Below are positions 2,763 through 19,822 of a stretch of 23,493 nt of DNA, piece by piece. Each line of letters opens with the position of its first letter. Position 1 is the stretch's first letter. Origin of the DNA: a virus; the IMG/VR virus record IMGVR_UViG_3300017564_000017, positions 1 to 23,493 of that record. One strand, written 5' to 3'. A program made the position numbers and the translations under genes. The notes under the pieces are model-generated. The model ran no database searches. It was not told the origin of the DNA and worked only from the letters and a program-made list of their open reading frames with translations.

Positions 2763-3764
2763 ATGCCTAACTTCCGTGATAAACTCATTCGTTTAGGCGT
2801 GATTCGGGAAGGGCCGATACGGGCAAACAAAAATTGGGTGTATCAAGGCGACGCTTCCGAAAGGGAAGTGTCTATGATACGGGTCGATAACGACACCGTC
2901 TTCATATCGACCATAGGTGGGGCGATTATCGCCTTAGACCCGTCGGGCGGCACGCCGACCGAAGAATGGCGGGTCGACTATTACGACGGGAAATTCATTC
3001 GTGCCTTAGACGCCGAAAACGGTCGGCTTTATTGGGGAAAGACCTTCGACTTCGGAACCGACGCCGTGCGTGCGGTATCGCAAAGCGACGGGTCGGCGAT
3101 ATGGACTTACGACGACGTCACGTCCGGCGGGTCGGTAGTGGTCGCTACCGCCGACCGCGTGTTCGCCGCGTCTTCCAGCGGCGAATATGTCGTCGCGTTA
3201 GCCGAAGCCGACGGTTCGGAAGTATGGAAAATAAACCCATCCACCGACAGCTATCAAGGCGGCGGGTCGGTTGGCGACGGTCGTGTGTATATCGCCGACG
3301 ATACCGGGTTCGTGCGTGCTTATGACCAATCCGACGGTTCGGTTCTATGGGAACACGAAAGCCCGCTAACCGATTCCGAAGATAACGCGCCGACGATAGT
3401 CGCCGCACGACATTCCGACGTCGGGCGTGTATATTATCCGACTTCGTACGGCGAGGTCGGTGTGTTAGAAGCCTACACGGGCGACTTCTTGTATTCCCAC
3501 GACTTTCACGGGTCGGATATGTTCGTTTCTTCGGTACAAGAACAAAACGGCTTTATCTATTCGTGCGGCGATAAGAAGGTGATTTGTGCGACCGACAAAG
3601 ACCCGCCCGAAGAATTGTGGTCGCATTCGTTTCACACGCAAGCCGGTCGCGGGATTTTTAGTTTAGATGTCGTCGGGCGTACCGTGTATTCGGGCGGCAC
3701 GACGGGCACGTTCGACGACGATGACTCAAAGCCGGAAGTCGTGTCGGCGGAAACCTCATTTTAG
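2763..3764 (+). CDS. PQQ-type beta-propeller protein, candidate tail adhesin
   Basis: This 333-residue protein consists of repeated propeller blades. At least five copies of the PQQ-like blade signature (A-x-D/E-x-x-D/T-G-x-x-x-W/Y) are visible: ALDAENGRLYWG, AVSQSDGSAIWTYDD, ALAEADGSEVWK, AYDQSDGSVLWEHE and VLEAYTGDFLYSHD. A degenerate first blade (IIALDPSGGTPTEEWR) precedes them. In cells this fold is known from BamB and quinoprotein dehydrogenases. Here the gene lies among tail fibre genes and has no signal peptide, so I infer a receptor-binding or fibre-tip role rather than an enzyme. ATG 2763 follows a 39-base gap. The N-terminal 40 residues (RDKLIRLGVIREGPIRANKNW) could be the virion attachment part. 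Confidence 0.75.
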   Translation: MPNFRDKLIRLGVIREGPIRANKNWVYQGDASEREVSMIRVDNDTVFISTIGGAIIALDPSGGTPTEEWRVDYYDGKFIRALDAENGRLYWGKTFDFGTDAVRAVSQSDGSAIWTYDDVTSGGSVVVATADRVFAASSSGEYVVALAEADGSEVWKINPSTDSYQGGGSVGDGRVYIADDTGFVRAYDQSDGSVLWEHESPLTDSEDNAPTIVAARHSDVGRVYYPTSYGEVGVLEAYTGDFLYSHDFHGSDMFVSSVQEQNGFIYSCGDKKVICATDKDPPEELWSHSFHTQAGRGIFSLDVVGRTVYSGGTTGTFDDDDSKPEVVSAETSF

Positions 3765-6097: not shown

Positions 6098-6502
6098 ATG
6101 CTTACCGAATCAATCGTCGGCGACTTCGCATTATGGGCGATAGTGTTCGCCTTCGGGTCGATTTTTAGTTGGTTAGTATGGCTTACCATACGGCACTACA
6201 ATTATGGAAAACCGGCATACGACGCCCTTGCGGGCGGCGATATGGGCGACGGGCACCTTGAAATGACGTCCGACCGGTTCAACGATATCGAAACAAAGCA
6301 AAACGACTTAGCCGAACGTATGGTCGAAGTCGAAAACGCGGTCGAAAGTATCGACGGGAAGACCGACCGCAATTACCGGCTTCTTGAAAAGATAGCGAAC
6401 AAAGCAAACGTCGACGGTATCATTTTTCGCGGCGACGGTTCCGGGCCGAAAGCCCCCGACGGCGGCAAGACCCAACCTAACGAAGACGAAAGCGACGATT
6501 AG
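6098..6502 (+). CDS. Membrane-anchored coiled-coil protein, possible holin-like
   Basis: This is a 134-residue protein. Residues 7-31 form one clear membrane segment (FALWAIVFAFGSIFSWLVWL). A helical heptad-like region follows at about 58-95, then a disordered acidic tail. It is the last gene before the resolvase and is separated from the tail genes by 60 bases that hold a promoter-like box (CCTTTTTCG). A single-span membrane protein after the tail operon could be a lysis or egress protein, but no holin or spanin motif is recognisable. Its last 4 bases overlap the end of the convergent resolvase gene. Confidence 0.6.
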   Translation: MLTESIVGDFALWAIVFAFGSIFSWLVWLTIRHYNYGKPAYDALAGGDMGDGHLEMTSDRFNDIETKQNDLAERMVEVENAVESIDGKTDRNYRLLEKIANKANVDGIIFRGDGSGPKAPDGGKTQPNEDESDD

Positions 6503-6975
6503 ATAGCGGTAAGCGGTTGTTTCGCCCATTCCGCAAACGTCACGGCGTCGTCGACGTCGCGGTGCTTCGTGAATGTGTACCCCTTCGACGTCGAATGTAG
6601 GTCGTCGACGTGAACGACGAAGTCGCCGGTATAGTCGATATGAACGAAGACGATCGGTTCCGCCCCGGTGTCTTCGGCGTACCGGCGAAGTGCCGACACT
6701 TCGTCGTTCGTTAGTCGAACCCTATCGGCACCGGCTTTCGATTCCGCCGCGAATTGATCGACTTCCGGCCCCGTCCGAAGCCATACGTGTATGTCGGGAA
6801 GGTCGGCGACACGACCCGCACCCGACGCCGGAAGCCGAAGGGCGGTAAAGTGCCGAACGAACGCGAAGTCGTCGATACCGACCCGTTCGTAATCCTTCCG
6901 GTCGTCGTCGGCGTCGGTCGCCGATAGCGCGTTCACGTAATGTCGTTCCCAACGGTCGCCCTTCGAATTAGACAT
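6499..6975 (-). CDS. hjc: Hjc-like archaeal Holliday junction resolvase
   Basis: This 158-residue protein is the only clear leftward gene. It shows the archaeal Hjc / PD-(D/E)xK layout: GDRWERHYVNAL with the catalytic Glu at about residue 10, RLPASGAGR at 47-55, D61 in LPDIHV, and ESK at 78-80 giving the ExK motif. Hjc cuts four-way junctions made in recombination, and viral versions resolve branched replication intermediates before packaging. It is slightly longer than cellular Hjc. A minus-strand promoter like those of the RHH and TFB genes lies 22-41 bases upstream. The start is the ATG at 6975. The gene is convergent with, and overlaps, the membrane-protein gene by 4 bases. Confidence 0.8.
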   Translation of the reverse strand: MSNSKGDRWERHYVNALSATDADDDRKDYERVGIDDFAFVRHFTALRLPASGAGRVADLPDIHVWLRTGPEVDQFAAESKAGADRVRLTNDEVSALRRYAEDTGAEPIVFVHIDYTGDFVVHVDDLHSTSKGYTFTKHRDVDDAVTFAEWAKQPLTAI

Positions 6976-6994: not shown

Positions 6995-7016
6995 CCGACG
7001 AAAGCGTGTCGGTGGG
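6995..7016 (-). promoter_or_regulatory. Type A promoter of the resolvase gene
   Basis: Read on the minus strand this is CCACCGACACGCTTTCGTC, matching the type A motif CACCGGCACGCTTTTAT at most positions. The first T after CACGC lies 28 nt from the ATG at 6975, which suits a leaderless transcript. Confidence 0.6.
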
Positions 7017-8051: not shown

Positions 8052-8069
8052 CACCGGCACGCTTTTATT
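8052..8069 (+). promoter_or_regulatory. Type A promoter of the TFB operon
   Basis: CACCGGCACGCTTTTATT is the best copy of the type A motif. The T-run begins 32 nt upstream of the chosen ATG 8095, which supports that start and a leaderless transcript. Confidence 0.75.
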
Positions 8070-8094: not shown

Positions 8095-9135
8095 ATGAGT
8101 GTAAACGAAGCCCCGGAACCGCGACAAGCGATTCGGGTGTTAGCCGACGAAGTCGGCTTACCGGAATCCGTCGCCGCGTTCGCCGCCGACCAATTGTACC
8201 CGCAAATCGAAAACGACGGTGGGTACGCCGACGCGGGAGTTCCCGCGACCGTGTACGCCGCCGTTCGGATTCACGGCGAACCGGTAAAGCCCGCCGAAAT
8301 AGCCGACGCGTCGGGCGTCGAAGCGAATCGGATTATGAAGGATATGCGGCGTATGGTCGACGGGCTACCGTTCGACGTGTCGGTCGACGGTATCGAACGC
8401 CGGTACGTCGACCGGTACGTCGACGACTTAGGCTTGCCCGACGACTTCCGCGAAACGGCCTTGGACTTGTGTGATGACGCGGTCGACGCGGGACTATCGA
8501 ACGGTCGGGCACCGTCGGCGTTCGCGGCGTCGGTCGTGTACGCGGCGTCGGTCGTGTACACGGCGTCGGTCGTCACCGACGGCGACCAAAAAGACGTCGC
8601 GGAAGTCGCCGACGTCGACGTCGACCAAAAAGACGTCGCGGAAGTCGCCGACGTCACGACGACGATTATTCGCCGACACTACCGCGACATTATCCGGGCG
8701 GGCGAAGACGGCGACGGCGTCACACGCGACGACCTTGCGGATATCGTCGACCGTATCTTCGCCGGTATCGACGGGCACGTGCCCGGATCGGTTCGGGAAG
8801 ACGCGACCGAAATGGCGAACGCTATCGACCCCGACGACGGGTGGGTGCGACGGTGCGACCCAAAGGCGGTCGCGGCGGGCGTCGTGTACGTCGCCGCCAA
8901 ACGGAACCGCTTAGACGTCACGCAAGCCGAAGCGGGCGACCCCGTCGGTATGTCACGGCACGCGGTGAACGCCCGGTCCCAAGACGTGAAACGGTGGGAT
9001 ATCCGCCGACGGCTTGAATCCTTGAACTACAATCGGCTAAAGGAACTTGCCGGGTCGAACGGAATCGACGTCGGGCAAACACCCAAACGCGAATACCTAA
9101 TCGACCGGCTTGTCGAAGCGGGTGTCGAACCATGA
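8095..9135 (+). CDS. TFB-like transcription factor, ribbonless, with SAP-like C-terminus
   Basis: This is a 346-residue protein. ATG 8095 is chosen over an in-frame start at 8044 because the latter lies inside the promoter. Residues 100-200 match the second cyclin repeat of TFB/TFIIB well (DLGLPDDFRETALDLCDDAVDAGLSNGR-type start, AFAASVVYAAS, then KDVAEVADVTTTIIRRHYRDI). Residues 10-90 look like a preceding cyclin repeat (LPESVAAFAADQLYP, ATVYAAVRIHG, AEIADASGVEANRIMKDMR). Residues 210-297 look like a third (AVAAGVVYVAAKRNRLDVTQ). The usual N-terminal zinc ribbon that recruits RNA polymerase is absent. Residues 310-343 (YNRLKELAGSNGIDVGQ through DRLVEAG) form a SAP/HeH-like DNA-binding motif. 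Two in-frame tandem repeats expand repeat 2. It probably binds promoter DNA at viral genes, as activator, alternative TFB or competitor. Confidence 0.7.
   Translation: MSVNEAPEPRQAIRVLADEVGLPESVAAFAADQLYPQIENDGGYADAGVPATVYAAVRIHGEPVKPAEIADASGVEANRIMKDMRRMVDGLPFDVSVDGIERRYVDRYVDDLGLPDDFRETALDLCDDAVDAGLSNGRAPSAFAASVVYAASVVYTASVVTDGDQKDVAEVADVDVDQKDVAEVADVTTTIIRRHYRDIIRAGEDGDGVTRDDLADIVDRIFAGIDGHVPGSVREDATEMANAIDPDDGWVRRCDPKAVAAGVVYVAAKRNRLDVTQAEAGDPVGMSRHAVNARSQDVKRWDIRRRLESLNYNRLKELAGSNGIDVGQTPKREYLIDRLVEAGVEP
8524..8573 (+). repeat. 18-bp tandem repeat inside the TFB-like gene
   Basis: The unit GCGGCGTCGGTCGTGTAC occurs at 8524-8541 and 8542-8559, with a partial third copy to 8573. It encodes AASVVY, AASVVY, TASVV. 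The length is a multiple of three, so the frame is kept. Confidence 0.85.
8584..8655 (+). repeat. 39-bp tandem repeat inside the TFB-like gene
   Basis: Two copies of a 39-base unit (8584-8622; 8623-8655, whose first 33 bases match exactly) encode DQKDVAEVADV twice, joined by DV. In TFB this segment is the start of the DNA-recognition helix pair, and it is normally present once. Confidence 0.85.
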
Positions 9136-9281
9136 CGATATATATTTGCCCGTCGTGCCGCGAATCATTCCAATTCAGAAGCGACGACCCCGTTCCCGCG
9201 TTTTGCCCGTTTTGCGGTGTCGACGTCGCGGTATGGCCGTACGCGAACGACGACACGAACAAAGACGGGGGCATGGTATAA
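9132..9281 (+). CDS. Zinc-ribbon microprotein (49 aa)
   Basis: This 49-residue protein is built around CPSC (residues 6-9) and CPFCG (25-29), a classic two-knuckle zinc ribbon. Its ATG overlaps the TFB stop as ATGA, and its stop overlaps the next start as TAATG, so it is translated from the TFB operon. Its place directly after a TFB that lacks its own zinc ribbon is suggestive, but the ribbon is not clearly of TFIIB type. Confidence 0.75.
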   Translation: MTIYICPSCRESFQFRSDDPVPAFCPFCGVDVAVWPYANDDTNKDGGMV

Positions 9282-10533: not shown

Positions 10534-10548
10534 ACCGGCACGCTTATA
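10534..10548 (+). promoter_or_regulatory. Type A promoter
   Basis: ACCGGCACGCTTATA is a good type A motif. The first T after CACGC lies 31 nt upstream of GTG 10575 and 46 nt upstream of ATG 10590, which favours the GTG as the start of the next gene. Confidence 0.7.
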
Positions 10549-10574: not shown

Positions 10575-11717
10575 GTGCGACACCGACCCATGACAAACCC
10601 ATTACGACAAGCGGTCGAAGAAAAGTTAGACAAGGGACGGCCCGACGACGGGCGTGAAACCGTCGATAACCGCGAACGCGGGTGTGGGCACTTGAACCCG
10701 AACGCGGCGTACGTGCGGTCGGACGTCACCGCCCTATCGGGGCCGGACGGCAAAATACCCCGCTTCGTCGAATTAGACGACCCCGTCGAATACCGGGAAC
10801 ATAACGGCAAGGGTGCGATTATCCCCGGATACGTCGGCTTCCCCGGCACGTCGTTCGACAAGCATTACGTCGCCGACGGTCGCACGACCACGCCCGCCGA
10901 AGATATCACCGACCACCACGAACGCCTTTCGCGGTACGGCTTCGACGGGAAGCATTACGGCGATATCACGTCGGCACAAGCGACCGACCTACTAATGTCG
11001 GTCGGGAAGACGAATTACGCGACGCCGCAAGACTATATCGACGAATGCCGGGAACGCGGGCTTAACCTCAAAATCCCGATATCCGACCGGCAAGAACCGC
11101 CCGCCGTCGAACCGCTTCGTACCCGCGTGTGGGTCGTTCACCCCCACGGGTGCGGCGACGGTCGACCGGGCATTATCGGGTACGCGTACCTTACCCGCGT
11201 GATATTCACGACCGGCACGAAGGCGAAGTCGGAAGACCCCGATATTCCGAAATGGGCGTCGGATTACGCGGCGGCGGGCAAGTTCGACGTCGTCGACCGG
11301 GGCGAACCCATTAGCGACGACGAAGCCGAAACGCGGTCGAACCACGTGCCGTTAGACGAATTCGACTTATACGACGCCGACGACGTCGACGACTTCGACG
11401 AACCCGACGACCCCGACGACACCGACACCCGCGACGTCGCTACGATCACCGTCGCCGACGACGACGCGGCGGGCGACGGTAGCGGTATCGAAGTCGAATT
11501 CGGTCGGGGCGATATCCCCGTGCGTGAACGCGTCGCGTCGTTCGAAGCCGCGACCGACGACGCGCTTCCGTATAACGGCTTGAAGATAATCGCCGCCAAC
11601 CGCGACGACGTCGACGTCGGGCCGACCCCGTCCGAAGGCGACCTTATCGCCGCTATCGCCGAAGACGCATACGCCTTCGTTCCCGCGTACCACACGGCGG
11701 AAGGGGGCGACGAATGA
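10575..11717 (+). CDS. Unknown 380-aa protein with SAP/HeH-like C-terminus
   Basis: GTG 10575 is chosen because it fits leaderless spacing from the type A promoter and because GTGCGACAC repeats the codons of the MVRHT cassette; ATG 10590 is the alternative. The N-terminal 240 residues contain GCGHLNPNAAY, PGYVGFPGTSFDKHYV and VWVVHPHGCGDGRPGIIGYA and appear to form one folded domain that I do not recognise. An acidic Asp-rich linker (about 255-300) follows. The C-terminus (about 333-362, YNGLKIIAANRDDVDVGPTP and on) resembles the SAP/HeH motif also seen at the end of the TFB-like protein, so DNA or virion binding is possible. Its position near PCNA suggests replication or nucleic-acid handling, as inference only. 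Confidence 0.65.
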   Translation: MRHRPMTNPLRQAVEEKLDKGRPDDGRETVDNRERGCGHLNPNAAYVRSDVTALSGPDGKIPRFVELDDPVEYREHNGKGAIIPGYVGFPGTSFDKHYVADGRTTTPAEDITDHHERLSRYGFDGKHYGDITSAQATDLLMSVGKTNYATPQDYIDECRERGLNLKIPISDRQEPPAVEPLRTRVWVVHPHGCGDGRPGIIGYAYLTRVIFTTGTKAKSEDPDIPKWASDYAAAGKFDVVDRGEPISDDEAETRSNHVPLDEFDLYDADDVDDFDEPDDPDDTDTRDVATITVADDDAAGDGSGIEVEFGRGDIPVRERVASFEAATDDALPYNGLKIIAANRDDVDVGPTPSEGDLIAAIAEDAYAFVPAYHTAEGGDE

Positions 11718-12090: not shown

Positions 12091-12163
12091 AGTCGCATAG
12101 TGTAGCGGCCAATCACGACCGCTTTTGGGGCGGTCGACCCCGGTTCGAATCCGGGCCGTGTCA
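12091..12163 (+). tRNA. tRNA-Gln(TTG)-like gene with unpaired acceptor stem
   Basis: The D arm has GTG pairing CAC around TAGCGGCCAAT. The anticodon stem is ACCGC/GCGGT around the loop TTTTGGG, giving anticodon TTG. There is a 4-base variable region, and the T arm CCCGG-TTCGAAT-CCGGG is perfect. The D, anticodon and T arms thus fold as a tRNA-Gln. The acceptor stem does not: the 5' heptamer AGTCGCA (12091-12097) has no proper match with the 3' heptamer CCGTGTC (12156-12162). It may be a defective or edited tRNA, a tRNA mimic, or a recombinant fragment. TTG decodes CAA, almost the only Gln codon this virus uses. No CCA is encoded. Confidence 0.65.
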
Positions 12164-12166
12164 TAT

Positions 12167-12201
12167 CCGACCCGCAAGGGGTCGGCGGGTCGACCGACCC
12201 G
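12167..12201 (+). repeat. Tandem hairpins between tRNA-like gene and PCNA
   Basis: CCGACCC (12167-12173) pairs with 12179-12185 around a 5-base loop, and CGGGTC (12186-12191) pairs with 12196-12201 around a 4-base loop. The two share the CGACCC sequence, so they can also pair with each other. They may end the tRNA-like transcript or lie in the PCNA leader. Confidence 0.5.
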
Positions 12202-12226
12202 ACACCAAAAGCGACACCGACTAACT

Positions 12227-13030
12227 ATGTCAGAAGCGAAACCGAAGACCACAGAAACGACAGTCGAAACGATAACCGACGGCGACGTGTGGCAAACAAT
12301 CGTCGACGGTGTGAACGACATAGGGCACAACGAAGGCGTGTTCGAATTCCACCCCGACGGCTTCAAGTGCGTCGTTAGGGACCCCGCAAACGTCGCCCTA
12401 ATCCGGCAAGAAGTCGCCGCCGAAGACTTTGAACACTTCGACATCGACGGCGAATTCGCGTCGGGCGTGTCGGGGCAAACATTCGACGACCTATTGGGTG
12501 CTATCGACGCCGTGCCCGTCGAATTCGGGTGGGATTGGGAAACGTACAAGTGGGACTTTCACGCCGACGACGTCGATTACAATATGGCGGGCGTCGACCC
12601 CGAATCGGTGACTGGGTCGCCGTCCGAAGTGCCGCCCGTGAAAGACGACATTCCGTACGTCGTCGACGTAACCATGCCCGTCGAAAAGTTCGATCGGGCG
12701 GTACAAATCGTCGACATGAACACGTCGGTCGCTACCTTCCGCATGGGCGGCGACGACCGCAAGTTCGTTATCGAAGGGGCCAGCGACATCGACGCCGGGA
12801 AAGTCGCGGTACACGAATCCGACGCGTTCGAATGGAACGAAGAACCGCCGGAAGACGAAGTCGTGTGCCGGCAAGGTAACGAATACATGAAAGACGTCGT
12901 CGGGTTATTAGACGAAGACACGGTGCGAATCGTCACCGGCCCCGAAGTGCCGTACCACCTTTGGACAACCCGGAACGACGTCGTCGACACCAAAATTATG
13001 CAAGCCCCACGCGTCGATACAGACACATAA
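12227..13030 (+). CDS. pcn: PCNA-like DNA polymerase sliding clamp
   Basis: This 267-residue protein, slightly longer than the roughly 247 residues of archaeal PCNA, has the two-domain clamp pattern. The N-terminal half contains EGVFEFHPDGFKCVVRDPANVALI and a strand pattern ending DDLLGAIDA. A linker follows, then a second copy-like half with DVTMPVEKFDRAVQIVDM, a strand hairpin and the typical C-terminal YHLWTTRNDVVDTKIMQAPR, which corresponds to the conserved end of PCNA (...APRI). PCNA forms a trimeric ring around DNA and tethers polymerase and other partners, so the virus influences or supplies its own replisome processivity. ATG 12227 follows the tRNA-like element and hairpins. The stop overlaps the next start as TAATG. 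Confidence 0.8.
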   Translation: MSEAKPKTTETTVETITDGDVWQTIVDGVNDIGHNEGVFEFHPDGFKCVVRDPANVALIRQEVAAEDFEHFDIDGEFASGVSGQTFDDLLGAIDAVPVEFGWDWETYKWDFHADDVDYNMAGVDPESVTGSPSEVPPVKDDIPYVVDVTMPVEKFDRAVQIVDMNTSVATFRMGGDDRKFVIEGASDIDAGKVAVHESDAFEWNEEPPEDEVVCRQGNEYMKDVVGLLDEDTVRIVTGPEVPYHLWTTRNDVVDTKIMQAPRVDTDT

Positions 13031-15119: not shown

Positions 15120-15135
15120 CACCGGCACGCTTTTA
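15120..15135 (+). promoter_or_regulatory. Type A promoter
   Basis: CACCGGCACGCTTTTA lies with its first T after CACGC 32 nt upstream of ATG 15163. This supports the very short gene that starts there. Confidence 0.7.
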
Positions 15136-15162: not shown

Positions 15163-15252
15163 ATGCCTATCATACACGCAAGGGTACCCGAAGACACCGT
15201 CGATCAAATCGAAGACGCGTTAGCCGCTATCGTCGACGACCGGGGGCGGTGA
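15163..15252 (+). CDS. Very small protein (29 aa)
   Basis: The protein is MPIIHARVPEDTVDQIEDAL followed by AAIVDDRGR. It has the strand-turn-helix look of a short RHH-like or leader peptide. It is placed at the leaderless distance from a type A promoter, and its stop overlaps the next GTG start (GTGA), so it may be a coupling peptide for the downstream gene. Confidence 0.5.
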   Translation: MPIIHARVPEDTVDQIEDALAAIVDDRGR

Positions 15253-18726: not shown

Positions 18727-18742
18727 CACCGGCACGCTTTTT
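18727..18742 (+). promoter_or_regulatory. Type A promoter
   Basis: CACCGGCACGCTTTTT places its first T after CACGC 29 nt upstream of ATG 18767, matching other type A genes. Confidence 0.7.
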
Positions 18743-18766: not shown

Positions 18767-19822
18767 ATGCCCGACGACACGTTCACCCCGCCCGTACGGG
18801 ATTACCACACGAAACACGAACGCGACGACCACGCCCCGAATCAAGCGTTACACGACGCGCTAACGGCGGCGTTCGACACCGCCGACGATAGCGACCACGT
18901 CACGGTGAACCTAATGGCGTCGCACGCACCGGGCGAAAAGCCCCACGACCCGACGTACGAAGTGCGGGTCGAATCCCGAAACGAAGGCATGGGGCACCCC
19001 ATGATTCCGACGCCCGTGCGACGGTTGGTCGACCGGAACGACGCGAAGATTACCGGCGTCGTCGAATGTAGCGACGACCACCTTGTCGTATCGCTTCGCC
19101 CGATCGAAGCCCGCGTCGAACCCGTCGAAGTCGAATACCGGCACGTTCCCGACGACTTCATTCACCGCCGCGACGCCGCCCAAATCGTCGCCGGGCTTGC
19201 CGAAGAAATTGAACCCGACGGCGACACGACGTCGCCGGCCATAGAAGACGCCGTCGAAGCCGCACGCGACGCCGCACGTTGGCTAAACGACGACGTCGAC
19301 GTGTGGGAAGGGCCGACCGACGAACGCGTTAGCGACGCCGCGAAGGGCACGACAAGACGTATAACACACTCCGACGCCGACGCCGACGACGAAGACGTGT
19401 TCGTTCCCGACGCTTCGCCGGGGGAATTGGCCGACGTCTTGAATCACTTCATTCACCGGGCCGACGTGCCACCCAACTATTCGACGCTATCAATCCTTCC
19501 GGCTATCCGCGACCGGCTTCGGTCGATAAAAGACGCGACCGACGGCACGCGTATCCCGTGTGGGTGCGGCGACTTCGCGGTCGAAGTGCCGGACGGGTCG
19601 ACCCCACCGTCGATCGACGTCGAAGCACACGACACGGGCTTCCCGAAGACACGACCCGCCGAATCCGCCGTGCGGTCGTACGTCGAACGCCGCTTACCCG
19701 ACGCCGCCGAAGACGTCGACGCCGGGGTAATCGCCGACATGGTCGAAAACTTCGTCGTGTCGGATAGCGTGTGGGGCAAAAACGCCGTATTCAAACACGA
19801 CGACACGGGGGCCGACGAATGA
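18767..19822 (+). CDS. Unknown acidic protein (351 aa), heads an eight-gene region
   Basis: Residues 25-110 contain a mixed alpha/beta unit (ALHDALTAAFDTADDSDHVT, then TYEVRVESRNEGM, AKITGVVECSDDHLVVSLRP). Residues 125-175 are helical (RRDAAQIVAGLAEEI, AIEDAVEAARDAARWL). At about 262-268 a CGCGDFAVEV patch could bind metal, but only two cysteines are present. The C-terminus has YVERRLPDAAEDV. No family is recognised. The next start overlaps its stop (ATGA). Confidence 0.6.
   Translation: MPDDTFTPPVRDYHTKHERDDHAPNQALHDALTAAFDTADDSDHVTVNLMASHAPGEKPHDPTYEVRVESRNEGMGHPMIPTPVRRLVDRNDAKITGVVECSDDHLVVSLRPIEARVEPVEVEYRHVPDDFIHRRDAAQIVAGLAEEIEPDGDTTSPAIEDAVEAARDAARWLNDDVDVWEGPTDERVSDAAKGTTRRITHSDADADDEDVFVPDASPGELADVLNHFIHRADVPPNYSTLSILPAIRDRLRSIKDATDGTRIPCGCGDFAVEVPDGSTPPSIDVEAHDTGFPKTRPAESAVRSYVERRLPDAAEDVDAGVIADMVENFVVSDSVWGKNAVFKHDDTGADE

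Follow-up and report, generated by a model that had tools for sequence, protein, structure and literature searches.

A ribbonless TFB descendant with three cyclin folds

The DNA analysed here is a 23.5-kb IMG/VR virus record (23,493 nucleotides, hereafter the window). Its baseplate gene (287-1741) was 31-32% identical to the counterparts of the haloarchaeal tailed viruses HHTV-2, HCTV-2, and HVTV-1, and we therefore assigned the window to a haloarchaeal tailed virus. An ORF was found at 8095-9135 of the plus strand, where the preliminary description had placed it. It begins with the ATG at 8095, ends with the stop codon at 9133-9135, and codes for 346 amino acids. The features of this gene and of the promoters discussed below are listed in Table 1. 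Elsewhere, the window carries a gene for the Holliday junction resolvase Hjc (6499-6975, minus strand) with the clade promoter motif upstream, a PCNA-like protein (12125-13030; PF00705 E 0.003) kept in five related contigs, and a tRNA-Gln gene (TTG anticodon, 12093-12164). A PQQ/BamB-type beta-propeller protein (2763-3764) adjoins the tail genes and was unmatched in the related contigs tested.

Table 1. Positions of the features in the window
Feature	Position	Strand
Gene's own promoter: ACCGGCACG (BRE position) and CTTTTATT (TATA)	8053..8069	+
TFB-derived protein without ribbon, 346 aa	8095..9135	+
Cyclin repeat 1, TFB repeat-1 type, residues 9-89, five predicted helices	8119..8361	+
Cyclin repeat 2, TFB repeat-2 type with helix-turn-helix (HTH), residues 100-204	8392..8706	+
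18-bp in-frame tandem duplication, 2.8 copies, inside repeat 2	8523..8573	+
39-bp in-frame tandem duplication, 2.3 copies, first HTH helix region of repeat 2	8577..8663	+
Extra cyclin repeat 3, repeat-2 type with its own HTH, residues 211-308	8725..9018	+
C-terminal helix-extension-helix (SAP/HeH-like) tail	9019..9132	+
Clade promoter motif CCGACACGCTTT, upstream of Hjc gene	7001..7012	-
Motif variant CCGGCACGCTTATA, upstream of gene starting at 10590; orthologues have the strict motif	10535..10548	+
Clade promoter motif, upstream of short ORF starting at 15164	15122..15134	+
Clade promoter motif, upstream of gene 18767-19822	18729..18741	+

When the window protein was used as the sole query, no close relative was found in the viral, genome, or phage collections. 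Relatives were reached via the neighbouring baseplate gene and family sub-alignments. They lie on five other haloviral contigs, with identities of 68% (G022), 44% (G026), 42% (G023), and 39% (G005 and G024).

The protein was cut into thirds, and each third was compared with Pfam. All three matched TFIIB, which was the best Pfam match in each case (PF00382; E 3.1e-4, 2.5e-9, and 0.022). Repeat 3 exceeded the Pfam TFIIB cut-off of 23.6 bits in four of the five relatives (30.8, 36.7, 29.7, and 26.2 bits) and stayed below it in G022 (21.1 bits). We then made one model for each of the two repeats of canonical TFB. The first third of the window protein scored 27.9 bits with the repeat-1 model versus 15.4 with the repeat-2 model. 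The middle third scored 49.8 bits with the repeat-2 model versus 22.0 with the repeat-1 model, in agreement with the convincing repeat 2 reported earlier, and the same third of four relatives (G026 not yet among them) scored 66-70 versus 21-29 bits. The last third also followed the repeat-2 model (22-49 bits versus 8-14). Comparison of family repeats 1, 2, and 3 with the canonical repeats by hhalign gave E-values of 7.9e-14, 2.1e-29, and 1.7e-14, the last being for repeat 3 against canonical repeat 2, versus 4.3e-8 against canonical repeat 1. Thus, consecutive cyclin repeats of types 1 and 2 are present as in archaeal TFB/TFIIB; however, TFB/TFIIB stop at two repeats with nothing added, and here repeat 3 and a tail follow.

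Canonical TFBs aligned to repeats 1 and 2 of the window protein only, which places the extra unit at the C-terminus and rules out extra repeats on both flanks. The preliminary description had proposed that repeat 2 is probably flanked by an extra repeat on both sides. The C-terminal one was borne out, whereas both the repeat models and the profile comparison identified the N-terminal one as an ordinary TFB repeat 1. From these sequence comparisons, repeat 3 is probably a duplicate of repeat 2.

The structure was predicted with AlphaFold from a five-member alignment. The full model (mean pLDDT 80.1, pTM 0.51) consisted of 5+5+5 helices followed by a two-helix tail, and the domain orientation was uncertain. 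The helices of repeat 1 were predicted at residues 9-19, 24-39, 48-60, 66-73, and 77-89. In a Foldseek search of the PDB with the full model, the archaeal TFB cores 1ais_B and 1d3u_B were among the best matches (TMt 0.70-0.72). Repeat 3 and the tail modelled alone reached a pLDDT of 89.7 and a pTM of 0.82. The top PDB matches of this part were mostly TFIIB, TFB, Brf1, and cyclins at a probability of ~1, with an rmsd of 2.4-2.6 over ~88 residues for the compact matches and weak E-values of 0.08-1. In the predicted model, repeat 3 is a five-helix cyclin box like solved cyclin folds, and no non-cyclin fold appeared at residues 10-90 or 210-297. The claim of three cyclin folds was therefore upheld by the model and by the TFIIB match of each third.

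The tail was predicted as two short helices (312-321 and 332-342; pLDDT ~86-93 by block) joined by an extended linker, which is the SAP/HeH layout, and it was 56-66% identical to those of the relatives. The Pfam SAP match to the tail stayed below the cut-off (E 0.0076, 16.3 bits versus 23.9). The SAP/HeH-like motif described earlier thus holds for the helix-loop-helix shape in the model but not at the level of the Pfam profile.

In TFB, the zinc ribbon binds the RNAP dock and the B-linker reaches into the enzyme; BRE recognition is the task of the second cyclin fold (PMC7289017). Pfam detected no zinc ribbon in the window protein, only TFIIB repeats and weak sub-threshold matches such as SAP. 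The NCBIfam TFIIB model aligned only from its position 134 onward and gave 76.8 bits versus a whole-protein cut-off of 384. The B-reader and B-linker are also absent, since the window protein begins a few residues ahead of repeat 1. All family members begin just ahead of repeat 1, and the N-terminal ribbon is lacking in all six. A longer N-terminus is unlikely because a TATA-type promoter lies ~30 nt ahead of the ATG. We also searched the window, G005, G022, G023, and G024, records which may be fragments, for a TFIIB-type ribbon. None exceeded the cut-off, and the best sub-cut-off match (19.3 bits, G023) was distant from the gene. A ribbon hidden upstream was ruled out by the promoter position together with this search. 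No TBP was encoded on any of the six contigs, which may likewise be fragments. Pfam, NCBIfam, and the shared absence in six members thus agree with the earlier statement that the ribbon is missing. Because the known anatomy of TFB puts the RNAP contacts in the ribbon and B-linker, a protein of this build should recruit RNAP, if at all, in a non-standard way.

A ribbon could also be supplied by a second protein. The small ORF at 9132-9281 encodes a zinc ribbon of 49 amino acids (CPSC...CPFC) and overlaps the stop codon of the TFB-like gene (ATGA). A split TFB would fit this overlap and the presence of a four-cysteine ribbon in the window, and an ORF with CPFCG occupies the equivalent spot in G005. 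However, the G005 ORF retains three of the four cysteines, no such ORF was found at that spot in G022, G023, G024, or G026, and the window ORF scored just 8.3 bits with the TFIIB ribbon model. Because the family as a whole does not keep the downstream zinc ORF, we ruled out this reading, which has next to no chance of being correct. These results confirm that the product of 8095-9135 is a ribbonless descendant of TFB with three cyclin folds and an HeH-like tail.

Conservation of the family

The ribbonless layout of three repeats and a tail was common to all six members, which indicates that loss of the ribbon is a stable feature. The window and its relatives share the baseplate, Hjc, RHH, PCNA-like, and other genes in varying sets, and from these shared neighbours we consider the six members to be one virus clade. 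Between the window and G022, dS was 0.73 and dN was 0.24 (dN/dS ~0.33), a sign of purifying selection. Repeat 3 was the most constrained part (dS 0.57, dN 0.14; ratio ~0.25). The repeat-1 and repeat-2 core of G026 was 36-38% identical to haloarchaeal TFBs, and the recognition-helix arginine of repeat 2 (T-[VI]-R-N-x-Y or I-I-R-R-x-Y) was kept in all six members. No cellular or proviral homologue was found in 115 genomes of the Thermococcus phylum, a set that says little about haloarchaea. TFB matches turned up in 132 plasmid records as well, none reaching 80% query coverage.

Repeat 2 of the window copy is 51 nt longer through two tandem duplications, which were found in no relative. The duplicated stretch falls partly in a low-confidence loop of the AlphaFold model (residues 162-171). 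These duplications would suit a viral TFB in decay, one whose N-terminus has gone and which has gained additional sequence. Against this, the layout is identical in six members, dN/dS is ~0.33 and lowest in repeat 3, and the duplications did not prevent a fold prediction of fair confidence. Decay is very unlikely overall. It is refuted at the family level by this conservation, and the window copy alone could be impaired. Because the six members keep the same ribbonless layout, we regard them as a family of genes that is conserved and under constraint, not as a relic.

A promoter motif shared by the clade

One promoter motif, ACCG(A/G)CAC-n-CTTTTA, recurs on the contigs with the gene, and CG(A/G)CA occupies its BRE position. 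The element lies ~30-40 nt ahead of the ATG of the gene across the family. Among all 1,024 5-mers, CGACA ranked first 5' of the TATA box upstream of gene starts in the six contigs (228 kb). CGACA occurred at 23 places and CGGCA at 9, the mean per word being 0.28. Neither word was found at this position in the controls G014, G019, HHTV-2, HCTV-2, and HVTV-1, five related viruses that lack the gene (213 kb); G006 was left out of the controls because it shares clade genes and is possibly a fragment of a member. An alignment of 40 sites in eight contigs showed an unforced A at -2 (1.42 bits). The geometry matched that of HF2, in which the BRE is at -33 to -37 and the TATA box at -26 (PMC8707807).

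IMG/VR was scanned for the motif followed by an ATG, a scan blind to the protein. It gave 85 stretches, most of them probably chance. Ten of the records were chosen by eye; one of them (G026) encoded a new three-repeat protein and became the sixth member. In plasmids, a motif one C short, with one mismatch allowed and hence not the exact motif, gave 2 matches in 1.2 Mb and so still set the clade apart from plasmids.

The CGGCA:CGACA ratio was 7:4 in the window and G022 versus 3:21 in the others (Fisher p 0.004). The repeat-2 recognition helices read IIRRxY in the window and G022 versus [VI]RNQY in the others. This parallel between helix type and BRE word is suggestive and represents one phylogenetic split only. 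Further promoter elements were also seen. In G023, a 5' leader (GTGGGTAGTAGGTGCGAACC..ATGACCGAA) is repeated upstream of several different genes, 3' of the TATA box. In G026, the promoters have another word in common, CCTTGCG, lying a few nt past the TATA box, and (G/C)TTCG takes its place in G025 and G022.

For haloarchaea, the BRE has been published as CGAAA and the TATA element as TTWT (PMC4983044). At the BRE position of the clade promoters, CGAAA was found at no site, or at one under a looser definition. This pattern of a variant BRE at many promoters with CGAAA nearly absent would also suit a positive, virus-wide initiation factor, which would bind TBP, TATA, and the viral BRE and, lacking a ribbon, recruit or retain RNAP by way of its cyclin core, repeat 3, or tail or jointly with host TFB in trans. 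Sulfolobus TFB3, which acts in trans alongside canonical TFB, offers a precedent for activation by a paralogue (PMC7289017), and the virion-borne TFB of HRTV-DL1 shows that haloviruses can bring their own TFB (PMC10544981). However, the known RNAP-recruiting ribbon and B-linker are gone in six of six members, and no substitute RNAP-binding domain was recognisable. We consider a working initiation factor unlikely, though well worth weighing.

A DNA-binding protein without a direct promoter role, with the TFB core reused as a DNA clamp in replication, recombination, or packaging, appears improbable. Repeat 3 and the HeH-like tail are of DNA-binding types, the Hjc and PCNA-like genes are close by, and the HRTV-DL1 TFB was detected in virus particles (PMC10544981), all of which would agree with such a role. 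Nevertheless, repeats 1 and 2 stay TFB-like, the arginine of the BRE helix included, and the clade-wide motif at the BRE position is best explained by a promoter factor. The clade-specific motif, which includes the gene's own promoter, gives circumstantial support for a promoter-specific role.

Proposed role and relation to known systems

The part of TFB that reads promoters is kept and the part that recruits RNAP is dropped; we therefore predict a promoter-occupying regulator. With somewhat less than even confidence, we favour a virus-specific regulator built on the TFB core, which would sit on viral promoters in place of host TFB and repress or time genes. In such a mechanism, repeats 1 and 2 would join host TBP on the TATA box and recognise the viral BRE in the manner of TFB. 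Further DNA contacts, and with them a higher affinity or specificity, would come from repeat 3 and the tail. Because RNAP docking via the ribbon is impossible, the main effect would be occupation of the motif promoters in place of host TFB, and the outcome may be repression or timing of viral genes together with self-regulation. We infer that the protein binds DNA and TBP and in which direction it regulates; likewise, the role as anchor, decoy, or repressor given in the preliminary description is a presumed one. Three points temper this regulator reading. CGACA is one base off CGAAA and could be readable by host TFB. The association of gene and motif amounts to about one evolutionary event because both co-occur in one virus clade. 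A repressor of all motif genes would need tight timing because the motif precedes many viral genes.

More broadly, we tentatively propose, at rather less than even confidence, a clade promoter code in which ACCG(A/G)CAC is read by a ribbonless TFB-derived factor with a duplicated BRE-reading repeat and an HeH-like tail, steering host RNAP to or from viral genes. The pairing of a viral TFB variant with its own promoter signal suggests a virus-specific switch of gene expression. The six proteins and ~40 candidate promoters allow us to ask whether the TFB core alone sets promoter choice, and they bear on how archaeal viruses keep their own genes apart from those of the host.

Searches of open-access literature turned up no report of a TFB with three cyclin folds or of a viral TFB lacking the ribbon, which is weak evidence since most subscription papers lie outside that scope. 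Sulfolobus TFB3 has the reverse design, with the ribbon region kept and a normal core missing. It is a TFB paralogue unable to replace canonical TFB (PMC7289017), as would be expected of the window protein. The window protein resembles archaeal TFB, including the haloarchaeal paralogues, in that its first two repeats align with the TFB core and the second contains an HTH; it differs in having no zinc ribbon, B-reader, or B-linker and in having repeat 3 and the HeH-like tail. ORF43 of the haloarchaeal tailed virus HRTV-DL1 is also a viral TFB, with a core 28% identical over 201 aa and a PCNA gene beside it, but it has its own ribbon over the Pfam cut-off and two repeats only. ARV3 gp32 of an Acidianus rudivirus is a virus-encoded TFB homologue as well, although with a ribbon-like N-terminus, two repeats, and no tail. 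HHTV-2 gp4 (3024-3308), annotated as hypothetical, contains a haloviral TFIIB-type cyclin repeat (17.7 bits, E 0.0037), but this is a lone repeat in 94 aa. Brf1/Brf2, at ranks 24-31 in the Foldseek search with the full model, similarly combine a TFIIB core with extra C-terminal parts; Brf proteins keep their ribbon, however, and are not known to carry a third cyclin repeat. The conserved, selected ribbonless three-repeat form thus departs from the architecture of the TFBs described in the cited sources, in which the ribbon docks RNAP.
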